Source of the DNA: a virus
Reading direction: 5' to 3' (one strand)
Length of the DNA: 53,276 nucleotides
Virus record (IMG/VR): IMGVR_UViG_3300034152_000987
Span: 1-53,276 of that record
Shown here in pieces: positions 17,742-49,640 of the stretch (position 1 is its first letter; each line of letters begins with the position of its first letter). The position numbers and the translations under genes were made by a program. Under the pieces are notes generated by a model. That model saw only the letters and a list, made by a program, of their open reading frames with translations. It was not told the origin of the DNA and did not search any database.

Positions 17742-20696
17742 TCATTTCTTTTTGGTCAAAACAGCTTCTGAACAAACCCTGGCGGCGTCGCCTCCTTTTG
17801 CAAATCCCGCGTCAACGCGCTCCCAGGAAGCTCCAGATCTATGCTCTTTCATCAATCCTCCAGAACTGTACATAGTCAATCCTTCCTCCACTTGAGAATC
17901 CTTTTCTATGGCCCTTATTCCATAACCAACCAATATCATTGCTGAATACAAGTCTTTGTTCTGTCCTTTTTTAGGAGTGTCGAAATGCAAAACACCGCTT
18001 GCTTTTTGAGTGACCACTATGTTCAACATCTGTGACTTTAAAACGTTTATGGCTTCAAAAACCCCCGCTTCCACGTCAGACGCAGAAGTTGGAGGCTCTG
18101 GAAACCGCAATTTTTTGTCCTCCAACAAAGACAAAGTGGCGTAGTTCGCGTCGGAAATCCACGATGGAGAAAAATTAACCATCTCCAAAATGTGACGACC
18201 TTCCATTTTTTTGTGATTGTCGTTAGTTATGTCTATGATGGGAACTTCGTCATTGTAACCTTCTTCAAGCAAATCGCAGACGGCTTTGCCTCCACCGCCT
18301 TTGTCCATGTATATTCTTGTTGCGTTGAACTGATCCGACAAACTTTGCACTGCTTTTGCAAGCTCTGGAGTGGTGTTTGTTTTTAGCTCTATTGCGCTAA
18401 CCACTTTATTGGTTTTTCCCAATTTTACAACCACGACTCCACAACTTGCAGATCCTCCCTGATTCGGATCAACCCCCATAATGTAATTCTCACCAGGCTC
18501 CGCTCCCAACTCCACGGAAAATTCGCTTCCGAAAGTGCAAGCCTCCAACAAGGAAGCTTTAAAAAATCCTTCTGAATCAGATATCATGGTGGCTTCGTAT
18601 TCCATTTGGAACCCAGCCTTGGACATGACCCTTTTTGCTTCCATGACGCTGTTCAAATCCAAAAACCCTTCTGGCAAAAACCAATATGGAATTTGATGCA
18701 CCGCGTACTGTGAATTTGAACCGTGTTTTTCCACTTGCTTCCAATAATCTTTCATTCTTTTCCACATGTGATTGAACTTGTAATAACCTGAAGAAGTCAT
18801 TATCATTTTATTCACAGTGCTTTCTTCGAAGTCCTCTTCTGTGGCCAATCCCATTTCTATTAATTTCTTTTGTCTTTGAAGACGTCTGACGTTTTTCATC
18901 GGTTCCAATATTGTGGCGGCCATGGGCCTGATGACCGTGTCCAAAACCGTTGGGTTGACTTGCGCCAACTCGTCAATGCATATTAAATAATAACGAGATC
19001 CTCTAATTTTGGAACCGTCGGCCAGTGGAAGTCCTTCTATGTAAGATCCTGAAAAATCTCCAGAAGATTTAAACGGAAGATAAACGGAGTCAGATCCCCT
19101 CGTTGGTTTTTTCGCAGTGGCCTCTTTCAGTATGGGAGATTTGTCCCATAATTTTTCAACTTCCATAAATATGTTTTTAGAATTATGGTTTATAAATCCA
19201 TTAGCCCAATAACATTCCTCATTTTCTACCTCCATATCCATGGTTGGAGCGAAAAAATAATTAGATTTTACCATTTTTACAAAATACAAACCCTGGTCCA
19301 AATAATCTTTACACTTAAAATAATTGCGCTCCACAATCTCCTGTGGAAGCCCTATAGAGCGAGCCAAACTCTCTTCTTTATCAAAATGACAACATAAATA
19401 ATTTTTCAAGTCAGCGTTTTTTCTCCTGCACCTAAACCCCACTACACCATTGAATTTTTTAATAAACGTTTGTCCGGTTATTCTAATCTTATAACTTTCC
19501 GCGCATTTAGACGGTTTGTTGCCCTGTGGTAATTGTTTAACGCGTTTTTTATTGCCAATCCCTAAATTAGACACAATGCCTAAATTCAATAATACAGATT
19601 GAACTTCCTTAGCTAACTGTAATGATGAGGCGTTGAATGTTATTTCACACGCTTTATTTTTTTGTACATAAACACAACCATCAGTATCAAACAAACCCTG
19701 TAAAAAAGCAATCACATTCTCCTTAGACGCCTTTTTAATAACGTCAGGGATTTTCTTATCCAACGCTATGGTTTTTGTAAACCCACACTTTAACAGGTAC
19801 ATACATAATTTTTTATTGCTAAACTGTAATTCTTTTGTATTATTTCTTCTCTGACACTCTTTTGTTTCTATGCCAAAATATTCTTTTGTATACCTATGAA
19901 AACTGTCTAATAAATCTCTATCTTCATTAACAAAATCTAATCTTGGTTTCTTATCCTTTTTTCTAAACGTAACACAACCATCACCAACCAACAAACCCAT
20001 CCAATAAGCTAAATCTTCAGTTAATAGTTTTGGAACTAAACAATCTTTAGTTCTCCAATCGTGCTCAAACTCATCAAAACTTGGCATGGAATCATTGTTG
20101 CCAAAATAATTAAATCCAGTTTTTATTGCTATGTAATCGTCTTTTACGTCTTGAAGGTCTTTATATACAATATCTGCGTCATCGTCAAGCACTATAATGG
20201 CGTGATCTACAGTGCCAGCCAATTCAAAACCTTTTGTTGTTTTTATTCTTCTACAAGCTCTGTCATCATTCTTCCATTTACTTAGTATTGTATTCTGAGA
20301 CTTAAAAGACTGCGTTTGCGTAATGTTGGGAACAACGCTTTCATACATGTCTTCTGCGCCAACAACCATCCCTGAGGTGGTCCAGAATGTATCATAATTA
20401 TTTGATATAATTAGGCTTTGTCTAAAGACAGGGCCAATTAAACCCACCCTATAACCAGGATACAGCAAACAGCTCAAACAAGCCAACACTCCCAGCATCC
20501 ACGTCTTTCCGCCGCCCCTGCCCATTACGGTGATCGTGTAATTCTTGAACCACATGTCCCTAAACACTATTTTCTGGACTGGAGCGAAATCAACCCCCAA
20601 CAACTCGCTGGCTGCTATGCAAGGGTGTTCTCTGTAAAACTGTATTAAATCAACCCCCCTGTCCAGTATTTTTTCAAGTTGATCGTCGTGCATCAA
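17742..20696 (-). CDS. terL: Terminase large subunit with LAGLIDADG intein
   Basis: The 984-residue precursor contains a 572-residue terminase and a 412-residue intein. The packaging ATPase has Walker A GRGGGKT at residues 59-65 and Walker B YYLICIDE ending at D575-E576. The RNase H-like nuclease has acidic residues at D743 (GVDPN), D798 (YMDKGG) and D915 (DLYSAM). The intein (residues 94-505) splits the ATPase domain after GPVFRQ, so protein splicing is needed before the motor can work. The gene overlaps the upstream putative small terminase by 4 bp, implying coupled translation. Confidence 0.9.
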   Translation of the reverse strand: MMHDDQLEKILDRGVDLIQFYREHPCIAASELLGVDFAPVQKIVFRDMWFKNYTITVMGRGGGKTWMLGVLACLSCLLYPGYRVGLIGPVFRQSLIISNNYDTFWTTSGMVVGAEDMYESVVPNITQTQSFKSQNTILSKWKNDDRACRRIKTTKGFELAGTVDHAIIVLDDDADIVYKDLQDVKDDYIAIKTGFNYFGNNDSMPSFDEFEHDWRTKDCLVPKLLTEDLAYWMGLLVGDGCVTFRKKDKKPRLDFVNEDRDLLDSFHRYTKEYFGIETKECQRRNNTKELQFSNKKLCMYLLKCGFTKTIALDKKIPDVIKKASKENVIAFLQGLFDTDGCVYVQKNKACEITFNASSLQLAKEVQSVLLNLGIVSNLGIGNKKRVKQLPQGNKPSKCAESYKIRITGQTFIKKFNGVVGFRCRRKNADLKNYLCCHFDKEESLARSIGLPQEIVERNYFKCKDYLDQGLYFVKMVKSNYFFAPTMDMEVENEECYWANGFINHNSKNIFMEVEKLWDKSPILKEATAKKPTRGSDSVYLPFKSSGDFSGSYIEGLPLADGSKIRGSRYYLICIDELAQVNPTVLDTVIRPMAATILEPMKNVRRLQRQKKLIEMGLATEEDFEESTVNKMIMTSSGYYKFNHMWKRMKDYWKQVEKHGSNSQYAVHQIPYWFLPEGFLDLNSVMEAKRVMSKAGFQMEYEATMISDSEGFFKASLLEACTFGSEFSVELGAEPGENYIMGVDPNQGGSASCGVVVVKLGKTNKVVSAIELKTNTTPELAKAVQSLSDQFNATRIYMDKGGGGKAVCDLLEEGYNDEVPIIDITNDNHKKMEGRHILEMVNFSPSWISDANYATLSLLEDKKLRFPEPPTSASDVEAGVFEAINVLKSQMLNIVVTQKASGVLHFDTPKKGQNKDLYSAMILVGYGIRAIEKDSQVEEGLTMYSSGGLMKEHRSGASWERVDAGFAKGGDAARVCSEAVLTKKK
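19182..20417 (-). mobile_element. Intein with two LAGLIDADG motifs inside terL
   Basis: The intein runs from Ser94 to Asn505 of the precursor. Its N-terminal splicing domain includes the TxxH motif GTVDH, and its C-terminus is ANGFINHN followed by Ser+1, the standard His-Asn ending. Endonuclease helices are at residues 231-240 (YWMGLLVGDG) and 331-340 (FLQGLFDTDG). It starts with Ser instead of the common Cys. The flanking exteins join as FRQ+SKNIF, restoring a normal terminase sequence. The DNA of the intein is more AT-rich than that of the exteins. Confidence 0.9.
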
Positions 20697-27826: not shown

Positions 27827-28849
27827 TTACAGCTGCGACGCCAACAAAGCCCCATTGGCCACAGTCGTCATGGGGTTTTTGGCTCTCACAACTTCTCCCA
27901 ATCTAATTGGAAAATCCACGTCTTTCAAACAAGCTTTGAATTTGTCCACGAACCCTTCAGCCAAAGTCAGTCCGCCCGACACCACGACCGGCACAGGATT
28001 TTTGAAAGAAGGCAAATCATTGCCTATTTCTTTCAACTCAAAGCCAATGTTCTTAAGAGAGTATTTAATCACGCTTCCGTAATAAATTCCAACAGCTTCT
28101 TCTATCTTTGACTTGGGGTTGTTCAAATCAACCCCAGCTTCCTTTTCAAGTTGCACTATCGAAGGACTCACGTCCAAAGCGTATCCAACGCTCTGATCAA
28201 TGAAATCCCCTGCTTTTGTTATGCTCATCTCTATGAGCGGATCTCCTTGATGAGCCACGCACACGTTCACCATCCCAGCCCCAAAAGACATGGACAAGCC
28301 AGTTAAATTCTCATCCAGCAATTCAGACAAACATATGGCGAACGCCTCGTTTATCGGTTGAGATTGATGACCCAGTTCAGACAAATAAGCTCCCATCACC
28401 TCCTGATGGTACAAAACGTCAAACTTTCCGTCTATCGGCTTCGCTGGCACCGAATAAACCACTTTGCTTCCTTCAGCGGCTTCTTTCAACAAATCTTTTA
28501 TTATCAACTTCAACATTGGAAACGAACTTTTTTCCTTAGGAGACAACACCCCCCTGCTCAACGGTCTTTGCGCCACGCCGTTTCGTTCCACAGCTATTTC
28601 CAAAGCGTCTTGTCCCACCACGATGAAACTGCCGTCTGAATCGGTTATGAAGCTGCATCCTCGCTTTTCCAATCCCATTCTAATGGAACTTTTGTTGACC
28701 TGAGATTTGGGCACTATTTTGAAAAAAGCGTCTCTCTGCATTTTGAATTTGGGATTTCCTCCGTCACCGACAGTGGCAACCACCAACATGTTTGTGCCAA
28801 TGTCCAAACCCACTCCGCTGGAACTTTTTTTCTTAATTCCGTCATTCAT
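27827..28849 (-). CDS. Actin-like ATPase (ParM/MreB/Hsp70 superfold)
   Basis: This 340-residue protein shows the actin-fold signatures: phosphate 1 loop GLDIGTNMLV near residue 13, the connecting YSVPAKPIDG region, phosphate 2 MSFGAGMVNV near residue 190, and adenosine loop VVSGGLTLAEGF near residue 295. It could polymerise to position phage DNA or virions in the cell, as phage Alp or TubZ/PhuZ cytoskeletons do. It overlaps the upstream coiled-coil gene by 4 bp, so the pair is probably a filament plus adaptor. Confidence 0.75.
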   Translation of the reverse strand: MNDGIKKKSSSGVGLDIGTNMLVVATVGDGGNPKFKMQRDAFFKIVPKSQVNKSSIRMGLEKRGCSFITDSDGSFIVVGQDALEIAVERNGVAQRPLSRGVLSPKEKSSFPMLKLIIKDLLKEAAEGSKVVYSVPAKPIDGKFDVLYHQEVMGAYLSELGHQSQPINEAFAICLSELLDENLTGLSMSFGAGMVNVCVAHQGDPLIEMSITKAGDFIDQSVGYALDVSPSIVQLEKEAGVDLNNPKSKIEEAVGIYYGSVIKYSLKNIGFELKEIGNDLPSFKNPVPVVVSGGLTLAEGFVDKFKACLKDVDFPIRLGEVVRAKNPMTTVANGALLASQL

Positions 28850-35654: not shown

Positions 35655-36182
35655 TTAGAAAAATTGTTTGATTTCTTTCTCTGCCGAGCTTTCGCTGTCT
35701 GACGCGTGAACCGCGTTTTTTGGAAGTTCGGTTCCAAAATCGCCTCTTATCGTGCCTGGTTTTGCCTTTGTGGGATCCGCGTCCCCAATCAACTGTCTCA
35801 CTGCGTTTATGACGTTGTCTCCTTCCAAAACCATCGCCACTATGGGTCCTGATGTCATGAATTCAACGTTCCTGTCAAAAAAATCTTTTCCGGCGTGTTC
35901 ATGATAAAAGTTCGTCGCTGCCGTTTTGGGCATTTCAAACATTCTCATCCCAACAATTTCCAAACCGTTGTTTTCAAATCTGGCCGTCACTCTTCCTATT
36001 GCGTTGTTTTTCACGCAATCCGGTTTTAACAACACCAACGTTCTTTCTGGTTCGCGGTTCAAGCTTGGTTTGACGTACGTCGGTCTCCAATTGGAAATTA
36101 GGTAATATAAAATCGTCAACAAGAAACCAAGAATTCCTATCTTAGCTGCGTTCCACAAATTATCAACAATGAATTCCAACAT
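35655..36182 (-). CDS. ndk: Nucleoside diphosphate kinase with N-terminal membrane anchor
   Basis: This 175-residue enzyme transfers phosphate to NDPs/dNDPs. The kinase core starts near residue 46: TLVLLKPDCVKNNAIGR, GPIVAMVLEGDNVI, KPGTIRGDFG, and the phosphorylated His H159 in NAVHASDS. Before it is a hydrophobic helix (residues 11-31, AAKIGILGFLLTILYYLIS), not found in typical NDKs. AGAGGT lies five nt before the ATG and there is no later start, so the anchor is real. This suggests dNTP synthesis held at the inner membrane. Confidence 0.85.
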   Translation of the reverse strand: MLEFIVDNLWNAAKIGILGFLLTILYYLISNWRPTYVKPSLNREPERTLVLLKPDCVKNNAIGRVTARFENNGLEIVGMRMFEMPKTAATNFYHEHAGKDFFDRNVEFMTSGPIVAMVLEGDNVINAVRQLIGDADPTKAKPGTIRGDFGTELPKNAVHASDSESSAEKEIKQFF

Positions 36183-46624: not shown

Positions 46625-47188
46625 ATGCCAAACGTTCAATTGGATTTAAAACCTGAAAGCACTCTTTGTTTTTCGGGCCATCGACCGAACAACCTTGGAG
46701 GTTATTACGGACCAAAGGCCAGGGCCATTCAGAGCGGAATTCATTCCAAGCTTTATGAATTGGCAAAGAGAGCCCATGAAGGAGGTTTTCGAACTTTCAT
46801 TCAAGGCGGAGCTCAAGGAGTGGATTGGATTGCCGCAGAGGCGTGCATTCGGCTCAGAAGGGAAGGGCACAATTTGAGATTGATAACCGCGAAACCTTTT
46901 CCTTCTCAAGCGGCCAAGTGGCCAAACGTGGTCATGGACAGGTACAACAACATTCTTGAACAATCCGACGCAGTCATCAACGTTTCTGACGACCCGTTCA
47001 CGGCTGTGAAAATGTTCGACAGGAACATGTGGATGATTGACAGGAGCAGAGTTCTCATTGCCGTGTTTGGAGGAAAGTCTGGAGGAACCCTTCAAGCGAT
47101 TTCTTACGCCAGACGGAAAGGACTGCTCATCTGTTCAATAGACCCAATTCATCTTGAGGAGAATTGGGAAAGACCTGAAAGGAGGTAA
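46625..47188 (+). CDS. SLOG-domain protein (YspA/DUF1273-like)
   Basis: This 187-residue protein has the Rossmann-like SLOG pattern: CFSGHRPNNLGGYY at the start, TFIQGGAQGVDWIAAEA near residue 57, and FGGKSGGTLQAISYARRKG near the end. SLOG domains bind nucleotide ligands, often NAD- or ADP-ribose-related molecules, and occur in anti-phage systems such as Thoeris (ThsA) and TIR pathways. Next to macro and NADAR genes, binding or removal of a host NAD-derived signal is a reasonable inference. A strong GGAGGAACCGAA precedes the ATG. Confidence 0.75.
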   Translation: MPNVQLDLKPESTLCFSGHRPNNLGGYYGPKARAIQSGIHSKLYELAKRAHEGGFRTFIQGGAQGVDWIAAEACIRLRREGHNLRLITAKPFPSQAAKWPNVVMDRYNNILEQSDAVINVSDDPFTAVKMFDRNMWMIDRSRVLIAVFGGKSGGTLQAISYARRKGLLICSIDPIHLEENWERPERR

Positions 47189-47192
47189 ATTA

Positions 47193-47993
47193 ATGAGGAT
47201 TTTCACGGCCCAATACCGTTATTCCGGTCCAGACAGATTGGACGTGACGGTCAAAGGGCAAGACCCAGTCGGCAAGGCGTTCGCCCCAACGTGGGAAATG
47301 GTCAAAGGGGTGAAAAATGGTTTCTTTTCGGAAGATGATTACTTGTCCCGCTACAAGCCGATTTTGGACCGAGGACTCGCTTCCTCAGGCGGGGCGTTTG
47401 AAAACAAGGAAAAAGTCGTGCTTGTTTGTTTTTGCGGTCCTGGCACGTTCTGTCATCGAATAACGATGGCGGAAGAAATGGAGCGCAGAGGAATCGGCGT
47501 TTACGAAGGGGAAATAAATCTCGGAAAGGCCCCTGATTGGCAACCTGGAGATTTGCTTGCCATTGAAAGGGGAGTGGTGGTTCACCAGGTGAACGCCAAA
47601 GGAGTCATGGGGGCTGGGATTGCTCTTCAATTCAGAAAGAAACACCCAGCCATGTATGAAGCGTATCGAAACTTGTGCTCAATTCAAACCAAAGACGGGT
47701 TGAAACTCGGCAAAATATTTTTGTGGAGGGCCTCAGACAAACTGATTGTCGCGAATTTTTGCGGCCAAGACGGGTTGGGAAGAAGCCGCAGACAAACTGA
47801 GTACTGGGCTCTCCGCCAATGTTTGAACAAATTGAAAAGTTGGCTTCAACTCAATTCAGAGCTGACTGGAAAGGAGGAACAAATCAACTTTCCTTGGAAA
47901 ATGGGATGCTCGTTGGGAGGAGGAAATTGGTACTTGGTTCATTCAATGATTAAAAACGTTTTTCCAAAAGCTAGAATCATAAGGAAAACGTGA
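47193..47993 (+). CDS. DUF488-macrodomain fusion protein
   Basis: This 266-residue protein joins two domains. Residues 1-110 are DUF488-like (TAQYRYSGPDRLDVTV, VVLVCFCGPGTFCHR). Residues of about 118-260 are a macrodomain: HQVNAKGVMGAGIALQF is the ADP-ribose-binding loop, followed by GKIFLWRASD, VANFCGQDGLG and the second loop MGCSLGGGNW. Macrodomains bind or hydrolyse ADP-ribose; DarG removes ADP-ribose from thymidine in DNA. DUF488-macro fusions are known from DarT-like toxin gene neighbourhoods. Here it may reverse ADP-ribosylation of phage DNA by host DarT. Confidence 0.8.
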   Translation: MRIFTAQYRYSGPDRLDVTVKGQDPVGKAFAPTWEMVKGVKNGFFSEDDYLSRYKPILDRGLASSGGAFENKEKVVLVCFCGPGTFCHRITMAEEMERRGIGVYEGEINLGKAPDWQPGDLLAIERGVVVHQVNAKGVMGAGIALQFRKKHPAMYEAYRNLCSIQTKDGLKLGKIFLWRASDKLIVANFCGQDGLGRSRRQTEYWALRQCLNKLKSWLQLNSELTGKEEQINFPWKMGCSLGGGNWYLVHSMIKNVFPKARIIRKT

Positions 47994-48005
47994 AAGGAGG
48001 CTGGC

Positions 48006-48266
48006 ATGTTCACTCACGTTTCGCGAGATGAAAGAGAAGAACGTCTTCACTTCTCTCATTTGTACAAATACGTGTCAGCGTATGAGTACACAAAAGAGGG
48101 ATTGAAAGAACTTGTTGAAGACGTTGAGTTTGCCGTAGAGAAAGCCAATGAACTCCGTGAACCGGTCATTGTGGATCAAGACGGTGAAATGTGCTTTCAC
48201 GTTCACCCTAATGGAAACATAACTCTCATGCTCCCGTGGAAACGTTACAAAATCATACGGGAATAG
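48006..48266 (+). CDS. Hypothetical protein in the ADP-ribose cluster
   Basis: This 86-residue protein (YVSAYEYTKEGLKELVEDV, VIVDQDGEMCFHVHPNGNI) has GAAAGGAGGCTGGC before its ATG. It sits between macro and DUF6011 genes with 12-16 bp gaps, so it is part of the same unit. No family was recognised. Confidence 0.6.
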   Translation: MFTHVSRDEREERLHFSHLYKYVSAYEYTKEGLKELVEDVEFAVEKANELREPVIVDQDGEMCFHVHPNGNITLMLPWKRYKIIRE

Positions 48267-48282
48267 AAAGGAGGAATGATTC

Positions 48283-48756
48283 ATGTCAACCACGGCAATG
48301 GAATTGAAGTCAGAAGTTCACGTCCCGTTCATCACGGCCGGGAAGGCGTTGGTGGAATTCAGCAGTTTGAGGAAAGAATTCAAGGTGATTTATCAAATCA
48401 CTAAACACGAAGAAAAAGATTTGTGGTTCGTCTCAGTTCAATTCCGTTTTCCGGCGACTGAAGACGAACCGTTTGGCAAAATCAAGTTCGCTTACGTCGG
48501 GGCCATATTCGAAGACCTTGTTTTCAGACACACCAAGAGAAGCAAAGTGTCTCCAACGTCCAAAGCGTTCCTCGGTTTCAAATTCGTGTGGGACGCTCTG
48601 GTAGCCAAAAATCTTCCTGATTACGTGGCAATCAAACATTTGGGCAGATGCGGTCGTTGCGGCAGACGCCTTAGCGACCCCAAGTCCATGGAAAGAGGGT
48701 TCGGCCCTCATTGTTGGAAGTTTGTCAATGAAGAAGACCCTGAATTGGAGGCTTGA
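48283..48756 (+). CDS. DUF6011-type zinc-finger protein
   Basis: This 157-residue protein has a beta-rich N-terminal domain (FKVIYQITKHEEKDLWFVS) and a C-terminal CGRCGRRLSDPKSMERG then GPHCW, the Cys-rich end typical of DUF6011. Such proteins are frequent in phage and plasmid early regions; activity is unknown. It lies between macro and NADAR genes. Confidence 0.6.
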   Translation: MSTTAMELKSEVHVPFITAGKALVEFSSLRKEFKVIYQITKHEEKDLWFVSVQFRFPATEDEPFGKIKFAYVGAIFEDLVFRHTKRSKVSPTSKAFLGFKFVWDALVAKNLPDYVAIKHLGRCGRCGRRLSDPKSMERGFGPHCWKFVNEEDPELEA

Positions 48757-48772
48757 AGAAAGGAGGAAAGAA

Positions 48773-49267
48773 ATGTTCGAGTTTGAGGAAAACGCAATCA
48801 AAGAGTTCAAAGGCGAGCATCGTTTTTTGTCCAACTTTTGGAAACAAGAACAAAGCGTCGCGTTCTTGATTGGGTCAGAGGAGGTGGAACTGACTTTTCC
48901 CACCAATGAACATTTTTATCAAGCAAGCAAGGCGAGCACGTTTGACGGTTTGATATACGTCAAAGAAGCCGAAACCCCTGGACAAGCCAAGCGCCGAGGA
49001 AGGTCGGTCAGTCACAGAAAGGACTGGGAAGAAGTGAAAGAAGCCATCATGCTGGCCGGTCTTAGAGTCAAATTCAGAAACCCCTCTCTCAGAAGACGAC
49101 TCGTCGCGACTTGGCCCAGACAACTTGTCGAAGGAAACTGGTGGAACGACAAGTTCTGGGGAGTGTGTCTCAAAACCAACGAGGGAGAGAACAAGTTGGG
49201 CGAATTGCTGATGAAGGTCAGAGAAGAGGTCATGGATGAGAACGTTGAAACTTTGTTCCATGATTGA
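48773..49267 (+). CDS. NADAR-family protein (YbiA-like; ADP-ribosyl-guanosine hydrolase class)
   Basis: This 164-residue protein is a clear NADAR: RFLSNFWKQE, FPTNEHFYQASKAS near residue 42, PGQAKRRGRSV, KDWEEVKEAIM, LVEGNWWNDKFWGVCL and GENKLGELLMKVR. NADAR enzymes remove ADP-ribose from guanine bases, and the T4-type AdfN protein of this family protects phage from DarTG defence. AAAGGAGGAAAGAA precedes the ATG. Together with the macrodomain two genes away it would cover two kinds of DNA ADP-ribosylation. Confidence 0.85.
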   Translation: MFEFEENAIKEFKGEHRFLSNFWKQEQSVAFLIGSEEVELTFPTNEHFYQASKASTFDGLIYVKEAETPGQAKRRGRSVSHRKDWEEVKEAIMLAGLRVKFRNPSLRRRLVATWPRQLVEGNWWNDKFWGVCLKTNEGENKLGELLMKVREEVMDENVETLFHD

Positions 49268-49640
49268 TTCGCCGCCGCGGTTTCAGCGTCCGTCCACCGA
49301 CGTCGCGGCGTCTCAGCGTCCGTCAAAAGTGAAGAAAAGCAAATTAAGGAAGTCGCCCGCTCGCGACTCCGCCCAAAGGGCGGGCCGCTCGCAGGGCTCC
49401 GCCAATTCATGTTCCCGCCACCCGCCCCCTCCTAGAAAGCGCGAAGCTCGCGGGCGGGGCGGGCTGGCGGCCCGCCTAGCGTCCGTTCCCTCTCTTTTGA
49501 ACTCAGTCGCGCGCTCTGAAAGAAGCGGAAAGAAAGCGAATGAAGCCAAAGCGCGCCCCTTGGGCAGGGTTTTCCGTCAGCGTCCGATTTCCCAATTGAA
49601 TGAGGTTGAACGAAAAACAAACGAAAAGCGGAAGAAAGGA
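49268..49640 (+). other. GC-rich gene-less spacer with AGCGTCC repeats
   Basis: About 370 bp without a supported gene. AGCGTCCG occurs at 49287, 49314, 49479 and 49577; inverted repeats such as CCGCCC-AAA-GGGCGG occur near 49372. One long plus-strand frame exists but is low-complexity and lacks a ribosome site. It may be an origin, a recombination hot spot or a transcription pause region. Confidence 0.5.

Follow-up and report, generated by a model that had tools for sequence, protein, structure and literature searches.

We analyzed a 53,276-base fragment of an uncultured phage genome, an IMG/VR virus record referred to here as the window, for an operon that may act against bacterial immunity based on nicotinamide adenine dinucleotide (NAD) and adenosine diphosphate (ADP)-ribose. 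The operon occupies positions 46625-49267 on the plus strand, and its five genes, spaced by 4-16 bases, encode a SLOG protein, a fusion of a DUF488-N3a domain to a macrodomain, an orphan protein, a DUF6011 protein and a NADAR protein. The original prediction placed three families acting on NAD- or ADP-ribose-type ligands within 2.6 kb, and Pfam, PHROG and NCBIfam profile matches bear this out. It also drew on strong ribosome sites; an AAGGAGG-type site does precede each of the five genes, but the same is true of almost every rightward gene beyond 43 kb, so the sites are not peculiar to the operon. A scan for promoters and terminators gave signals no more frequent than in shuffled sequences, and searching phages with the nucleotide sequence of the operon returned zero matches. 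Because no close relatives emerged when viral contigs were scanned with one protein at a time (SLOG, fusion, orphan or DUF6011), profile-based scans were needed.

The first gene (46625-47188, plus strand) encodes a 187-residue protein consisting of a single YpsA-type SLOG domain, with matches to PF06908 (E = 9.6e-18) and, by phmmer, to Bacillus subtilis YpsA (2nx2, E = 6e-8). Alignment with five phage SLOG proteins showed that the motifs GHRP (residues 18-21), GGAQGVD (61-67), RNxWMID (133-139) and GGT are kept, and the protein thus combines the PF06908 match with the GxRP, GGxxGxD and RNxxM motifs of YpsA-like SLOG proteins. An analogy to Thoeris had been proposed on the basis of this gene. 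The SLOG domain stands alone, however, no protein of the operon matches SIR2 or TIR, and a single YpsA-type domain of this length is not the SIR2-SLOG effector ThsA of Thoeris.

The second gene encodes the 266-residue fusion protein (47193-47993), probably from the ATG at 47193; a TTG at 47154, the first start listed for this frame, is unlikely by comparison. Its N-terminal part (47193-47519, plus strand) is a DUF488-N3a domain, which scored 28.6 bits with PF22751 (cut-off 27) in a scan restricted to the N-terminal half of the fusion. It carries the cysteine active-site loop of the family, a rhodanese-phosphatase-like C79-x-C81...C87-H88-R89 element, which in the structural model lies between a strand (74-79) and a helix (88-98). 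Rhodanese-phosphatase superfamily members with a Cys-x-Cys...Cys-His-Arg loop are expected to be active, and Pfam labels PF22751 the 'active DUF488-N3 subclade'; on these grounds the DUF488 half is expected to be an active rhodanese-phosphatase relative. A sequence search of the PDB with this half returned noise only. The domain is 39-47% identical to those of phiKZ gp151 (39%) and of a further viral locus, L079. Although gp151 has the same CxC...CHR loop, it is a stand-alone protein, and none of the annotated genes in the 5-kb flanks of its gene belongs to the macro, NADAR or SLOG families. At the sensitivity of tblastn, none of 50,697 phage records contained a DUF488-N3a-macro fusion, and no record spanned 80% of the fusion protein.

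The C-terminal part of the fusion (47520-47993, plus strand) is a macrodomain of the ALC1-like class. It matches PHROG 335 (E = 3.5e-36), falls slightly below the PF01661 cut-off (21.3 bits against 22) and aligns by profile with the structures of BT1257, SCO6735, DarG, TARG1 and Poa1p; the best Foldseek matches of its model (predicted local distance difference test score, pLDDT, 79.7) were 2fg1, DarG 5m3e and Poa1p. The SCO6735/BT1257 group is defined by its macro fold together with the residues H24, N27 and Q85 (SCO6735 numbering) and a glycine in the loop that binds phosphate, and the phage domain has H131, N134, Q192 and the loop GCSLGGG at the corresponding places. The original prediction had likened this domain to the antitoxin DarG. 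DarG profiles do match it (E = 2e-18 and 7e-20), but the NCBIfam DarG score of 66.6 bits is far below the cut-off of 250, the block contains no DarT, and in an alignment with 5m3i Gln192 replaces the catalytic lysine (DarG K80, TARG1 K84), so that the analogy fails at the residue level. We considered whether loss of this lysine means loss of thymidine-ADP-ribose hydrolysis and dropped the idea, since in Streptomyces coelicolor SCO6735 the equivalent Gln85 is essential for removal of thymidine-linked ADP-ribose (PMC9411070). By analogy with SCO6735, the Gln-type macrodomain of the fusion could therefore act on thymidine adducts by another route. The two proteins share the ALC1-like class, the glutamine at the DarG/TARG1 lysine site and the H..N and GCxLxGG elements; SCO6735 differs in being bacterial, in lacking a DUF488 fusion and in having a measured activity, whereas the phage domain is known from its sequence and model.

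Two genes lie between the fusion and NADAR genes. The first (48006-48266, plus strand) encodes an 86-residue orphan with no recognizable relative: it has no Pfam or NCBIfam match, nothing credible in PHROGs, phages or plasmids, and no counterpart in the related phage described below. A match to PADLOC 'Orf5' (E = 0.003) covers only 33 residues and was rejected. The second (48283-48756, plus strand) encodes the DUF6011 protein (PF19474, E = 7e-12; PHROG 20259, E = 1.7e-26 over nearly its full length), in which a beta domain of about 100 residues is joined to a C-terminal zinc-finger-like C-x2-C...C motif. A fold search with its AlphaFold2 model (pLDDT 91.6) gave no PDB match (best E = 0.16) and matched only uncharacterized phage and viral proteins; very weak likenesses to PARP1/2 complexes and HerA-DUF4297 were not used. 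DUF6011 is a common phage family, and homologues have ADP-ribose-type families within 7 kb at just 3 of 80 viral loci (Agrobacterium phage Atu_ph07 and two with only a YAcAr/DUF2493-type SLOG), too few for it to mark ADP-ribose islands in general, and we rejected it in that role. Because the related phage retains the gene in this position, we tentatively regard its product as a possible accessory of the operon, and nothing more. Both genes had been put forward as new parts of an ADP-ribose shield; for the DUF6011 gene, retention in the relative speaks for this and rare linkage elsewhere against it, whereas the orphan's absence from the relative and from all collections searched counts against its inclusion.

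The last gene (48773-49267, plus strand) encodes a 164-residue NADAR protein of the YbiA type, matching PF08719 (E = 9e-28) and TIGR02464 (80.8 bits, cut-off 73.7). Alignment with eight phage NADAR proteins showed that E46, K53, E120, D126 and W129 are kept; by a reading of the alignment plus spacing, these correspond to E43, K50, E125, D130 and W133, through which the Phytophthora NADAR holds ADP-ribose in its structure (PMC11543638). The protein has the profile match, catalytic glutamate and lysine, and last-strand glutamate of the YbiA subfamily, and since glutamate is kept at this last site we assign it to that type rather than to the DarT1 type (aspartate) or T4 type (histidine). It shares the naked YbiA fold and the E/K catalytic pair with both YbiA and T4 gp30.3, but the last-strand glutamate with YbiA only (PMC11125620, PMC11543638). 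In vitro, NADAR proteins of several types strip guanosine in DNA and RNA of its ADP-ribose (PMC11125620, PMC11833690). T4 NADAR and Escherichia coli YbiA hydrolyze guanosine-ADP-ribose in vitro, yet neither rescues cells from DarT1 (PMC11125620), and the operon protein lacks the aspartate, the N-terminal extension and the ADP-ribosyltransferase neighbor of DarT1-associated antitoxins; the analogy to a DarT1-type antitoxin is thus not upheld. Nor did we find, in the literature searched, the phage protein 'AdfN' invoked as a precedent for overcoming DarTG: that literature names AdfB, which acts as a binding mimic, as the counter-factor to DarT and gives AdfA as its precedent (PMC11481870).

The NADAR gene also raises the question of whether the operon works against other phages, as a device for superinfection exclusion, and not as a means of counter-defense. 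One NADAR family, NF053876, carries an anti-phage listing, and NADAR proteins are among the validated DefensePredictor candidates (PMC13092281). The match to NF053876 reaches just 51 bits against a cut-off of 240, however, and the block is without a toxin-like ADP-ribosyltransferase, TIR or SIR2 partner; we consider such a role highly unlikely. Directly 3' of the NADAR gene, a stretch at 49300-49560 rich in G and C looks non-coding and differs in composition from the operon.

Scanning with the DUF488 profile identified a related phage, contig G051:C257 (62,349 bases; loci L120 and L133-L136), binned in a WOR-3 metagenome-assembled genome. About 30 window proteins have matches in this contig, in a mostly collinear order that takes in the structural arm, including the portal (60% identity), terminase (56%), head protease (61%) and one protein at 84%. 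Its L120 block encodes on one strand, within less than 4 kb, DUF488-N3a, macro, DUF6011 and NADAR proteins followed by a YAcAr-type SLOG. The order DUF488, macro, DUF6011, NADAR is therefore common to both phages, at 29-41% identity between the operon genes, from which we conclude that the operon order outlived much sequence change. In L120, DUF488 and macro are separate genes with other small genes between, and SLOG, which differs in type from that of the window, sits at the opposite end. Other small genes in the region are not shared between the two phages. The original prediction had named conservation of gene order in relatives as a point on which it could fail, and here it withstood examination. 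A search with the portal protein through 147 genomes of the phylum to which the WOR-3 relative belongs recovered only the known contig. Immediately upstream of the DUF488 gene of the relative, at L120:4383-4826, is encoded a protein that looks, on inspection by eye, like a gp30.3-type NADAR and has no Pfam match.

If macro, NADAR and DUF488 proteins processed ADP-ribose-1''-phosphate and other by-products of KptA-type transfer RNA (tRNA) repair, the operon would serve as a clean-up set for RNA repair. The macrodomain model does resemble Poa1p, an ADP-ribose-1''-phosphatase, and Macro and NADAR domains have been linked to RNA repair (PMC9503650). Of the window proteins scanned, which cover part of the open reading frames of a genome fragment, none was an RNA ligase, a kinase-phosphatase or KptA, and we found no tRNA genes; RNA-repair genes were also missing from the L120 block. 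A clean-up function of this kind is unlikely.

We then asked how often these families meet in other phages. Starting from 80 SLOG-bearing viral contigs, 50 whole IMG/VR records were searched for NADAR, macro, DUF4326 and DUF488-N3a, with look-alike phages counted once and linkage scored within 5 kb. Near SLOG we found DUF488 in 3 of 3 cases (expected 0.4, P = 0.002), DUF4326 in 4 of 7 (expected 0.9, P = 0.004), macro in 4 of 13 (expected 1.1, P = 0.02) and, more weakly, NADAR in 3 of 9 (expected 1.0, P = 0.06); macro and NADAR lay within the same distance of each other in 3 of 4 (P = 0.002). These P values are indicative only, as the uniform-placement null ignores the tendency of accessory genes to share regions. 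Individual loci illustrate the pattern: at L079 the NADAR gene overlaps DUF488, with SLOG about 2.2 kb on; L090 has DUF488, macro and SLOG; L056, L086 and L101 have macro, NADAR and SLOG; and L039:3842-6531 has macro, DUF1848, DUF488 and SLOG in series, which makes DUF1848 a candidate for a further partner. The family content thus recurs across phages, with an order that varies outside the pair formed by the window and L120. Among 15 viral loci found by the DUF488 profile, only 2 or 3 have NADAR or SLOG within 6 kb, which implies that DUF488-N3a also occurs in phages without them. Separately, five loci from Anaerolineae and relatives (L127, L128, L129, L131 and L132) carry DUF488-N3a directly upstream of an open reading frame, a repeated host arrangement; in L127 that frame encodes an RNase H with a DprA-like C terminus.

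These data also bear on whether the operon is a loose collection of unrelated accessory genes that share a variable region by accident. The short orphan neighbors, the varying order among unrelated phages and the unlinked DUF6011 homologues elsewhere would all fit such a collection. Set against them are the order kept in the relative despite low identity and turnover of small flanking genes, the above-chance clustering in other phages, and a probability of about 0.005 that three chosen genes among about 91 would land in five consecutive genes. We regard an accidental grouping as improbable.

The theme has a published precedent. Across 21,191 viral proteomes, Macro, NADAR, SLOG and Nudix domains co-occur above expectation (Iyer et al. 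2022, PMC9503650), and the same study described neighborhoods of SLOG with Macro and NADAR, and DUF4326 fusions, in DNA viruses (PMC9503650, Fig. 5h), and proposed that viral SLOG/Macro/NADAR sets degrade ADP-ribose derivatives of the host and act against soluble ADP-ribose signals or toxins that belong to its immunity. The operon is a neighborhood of this kind, with the same three families and a rhodanese-phosphatase partner; that partner is DUF4326 in the published cases and here is DUF488-N3a, fused to the macrodomain, DUF488 being absent from that paper. ADP-ribose counter-defense is therefore already in print as a hypothesis, which the original prediction rediscovered, and what is new is the DUF488-N3a-macro fusion and the conserved core. 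Related arrangements occur in Bacillus phage KLEB27-3, where SLOG adjoins a rhodanese-phosphatase-type domain and NADAR (gp235-gp234), and in Myxococcus phage Mx1, where SLOG is fused to such a domain (WNM70115). In both, the domain is DUF4326 and not DUF488, in KLEB27-3 fused to NADAR, and no macrodomain was seen in either block. Phage degradation of cyclic ADP-ribose signals has been shown with RyDEP (PMC13232231). RyDEP and NARP1 of mycobacteriophage DyoEdafos parallel the role proposed here, as a phage operon degrading ADP-ribose-based immune signals, but their protein families are unrelated and their activity is demonstrated (PMC13232231); Adps and Namat, the genes of the NARP1 NAD+ reconstitution operon, were not among the scanned proteins of the window, which cover part of the open reading frames of a fragment.

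Four families that bind or process NAD- or ADP-ribose-type ligands thus sit in one operon with key residues intact, and because the order of the core is unchanged in the related phage, the operon is probably a counter-defense locus. Judged from its genes, it probably disarms bacterial NAD/ADP-ribose-based immunity by removing or degrading ADP-ribose derivatives made by the host. NADAR would release ADP-ribose by cleavage, either from N-glycosidic adducts of the guanine type or from a soluble derivative, and the macrodomain would cleave ADP-ribose adducts by a Gln-type, SCO6735-like route. The fused DUF488 domain might carry out a second step on the released or phosphorylated product, while the SLOG protein may bind or cleave an ADP-ribose-type signal. 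The defenses blunted in this way would be nucleic acid ADP-ribosylation (DarT-like) or signaling by cyclic ADP-ribose or ADP-ribose phosphate (Thoeris-like). A more specific and rather doubtful version would make the fusion a two-step enzyme in which the macrodomain frees or linearizes an ADP-ribose derivative and DUF488 destroys the product, NADAR and SLOG completing a phage pathway that erases several kinds of ADP-ribose signal or adduct and DUF6011 serving as a nucleic-acid-directed adaptor. Of the broad ADP-ribose shield originally proposed, the family assignments, a joint role in NAD/ADP-ribose chemistry (backed by the conserved block, above-chance clustering and kept key residues) and the counter-defense idea are supported; the analogies to DarG and DarT1 fit only in part, and the SLOG protein is not a Thoeris effector.

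Several observations weigh against a counter-defense role. The conserved order is seen in one relative only and the linkage P values are modest. NADAR and macro occur in 492 and 569 of 50,697 phage records, respectively, so finding both in one large accessory region is not unusual. For DUF488-N3a chemistry we found no solved structure or tested protein in the literature read. Finally, the NADAR protein also scores above the cut-off for riboflavin-intermediate N-glycosidases, an activity of E. coli YbiA as cited in PMC11543638, and DNMK and NDK nucleotide-metabolism genes are present in the window. Both would suit metabolic damage control or nucleotide salvage, in which NADAR clears reactive riboflavin intermediates and the other proteins recycle NAD breakdown products with no tie to immunity. 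The repeated pairing with SLOG, macro, DUF488 and DUF4326, and the lack of a flavin gene among the scanned neighbors, argue against this, and we give it a low probability.

Genes in the left 40 kb of the window run leftward and include virion and packaging functions (portal, terminase, ClpP-type head protease and endolysin), whereas short rightward genes begin at about 43 kb. The portal is distantly akin to that of Bacillus phage G (25% identity). The large terminase gene (17742-20696, minus strand) is split by an intein with a LAGLIDADG endonuclease, and the nucleoside diphosphate kinase gene (NDK) lies at 35655-36182 (minus strand; PF00334, E = 1e-52). Beside the head protease gene, a protein encoded at 27827-28849 (minus strand) matches Volactin (E = 3e-60), an actin-like Pfam family named from Haloferax. 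The related phage has a copy at 54% identity, and two huge phages of 485 and 595 kb, both uncultured, have copies at 30-32%.

As a conserved and compact unit, the operon lends itself to being cloned whole against known ADP-ribose-based defenses. The fusion ties the DUF488-N3a domain to ADP-ribose chemistry, and the operon bears on the question of whether the widespread macro, NADAR and SLOG proteins of phages target soluble immune signals or ADP-ribosylated nucleic acids.

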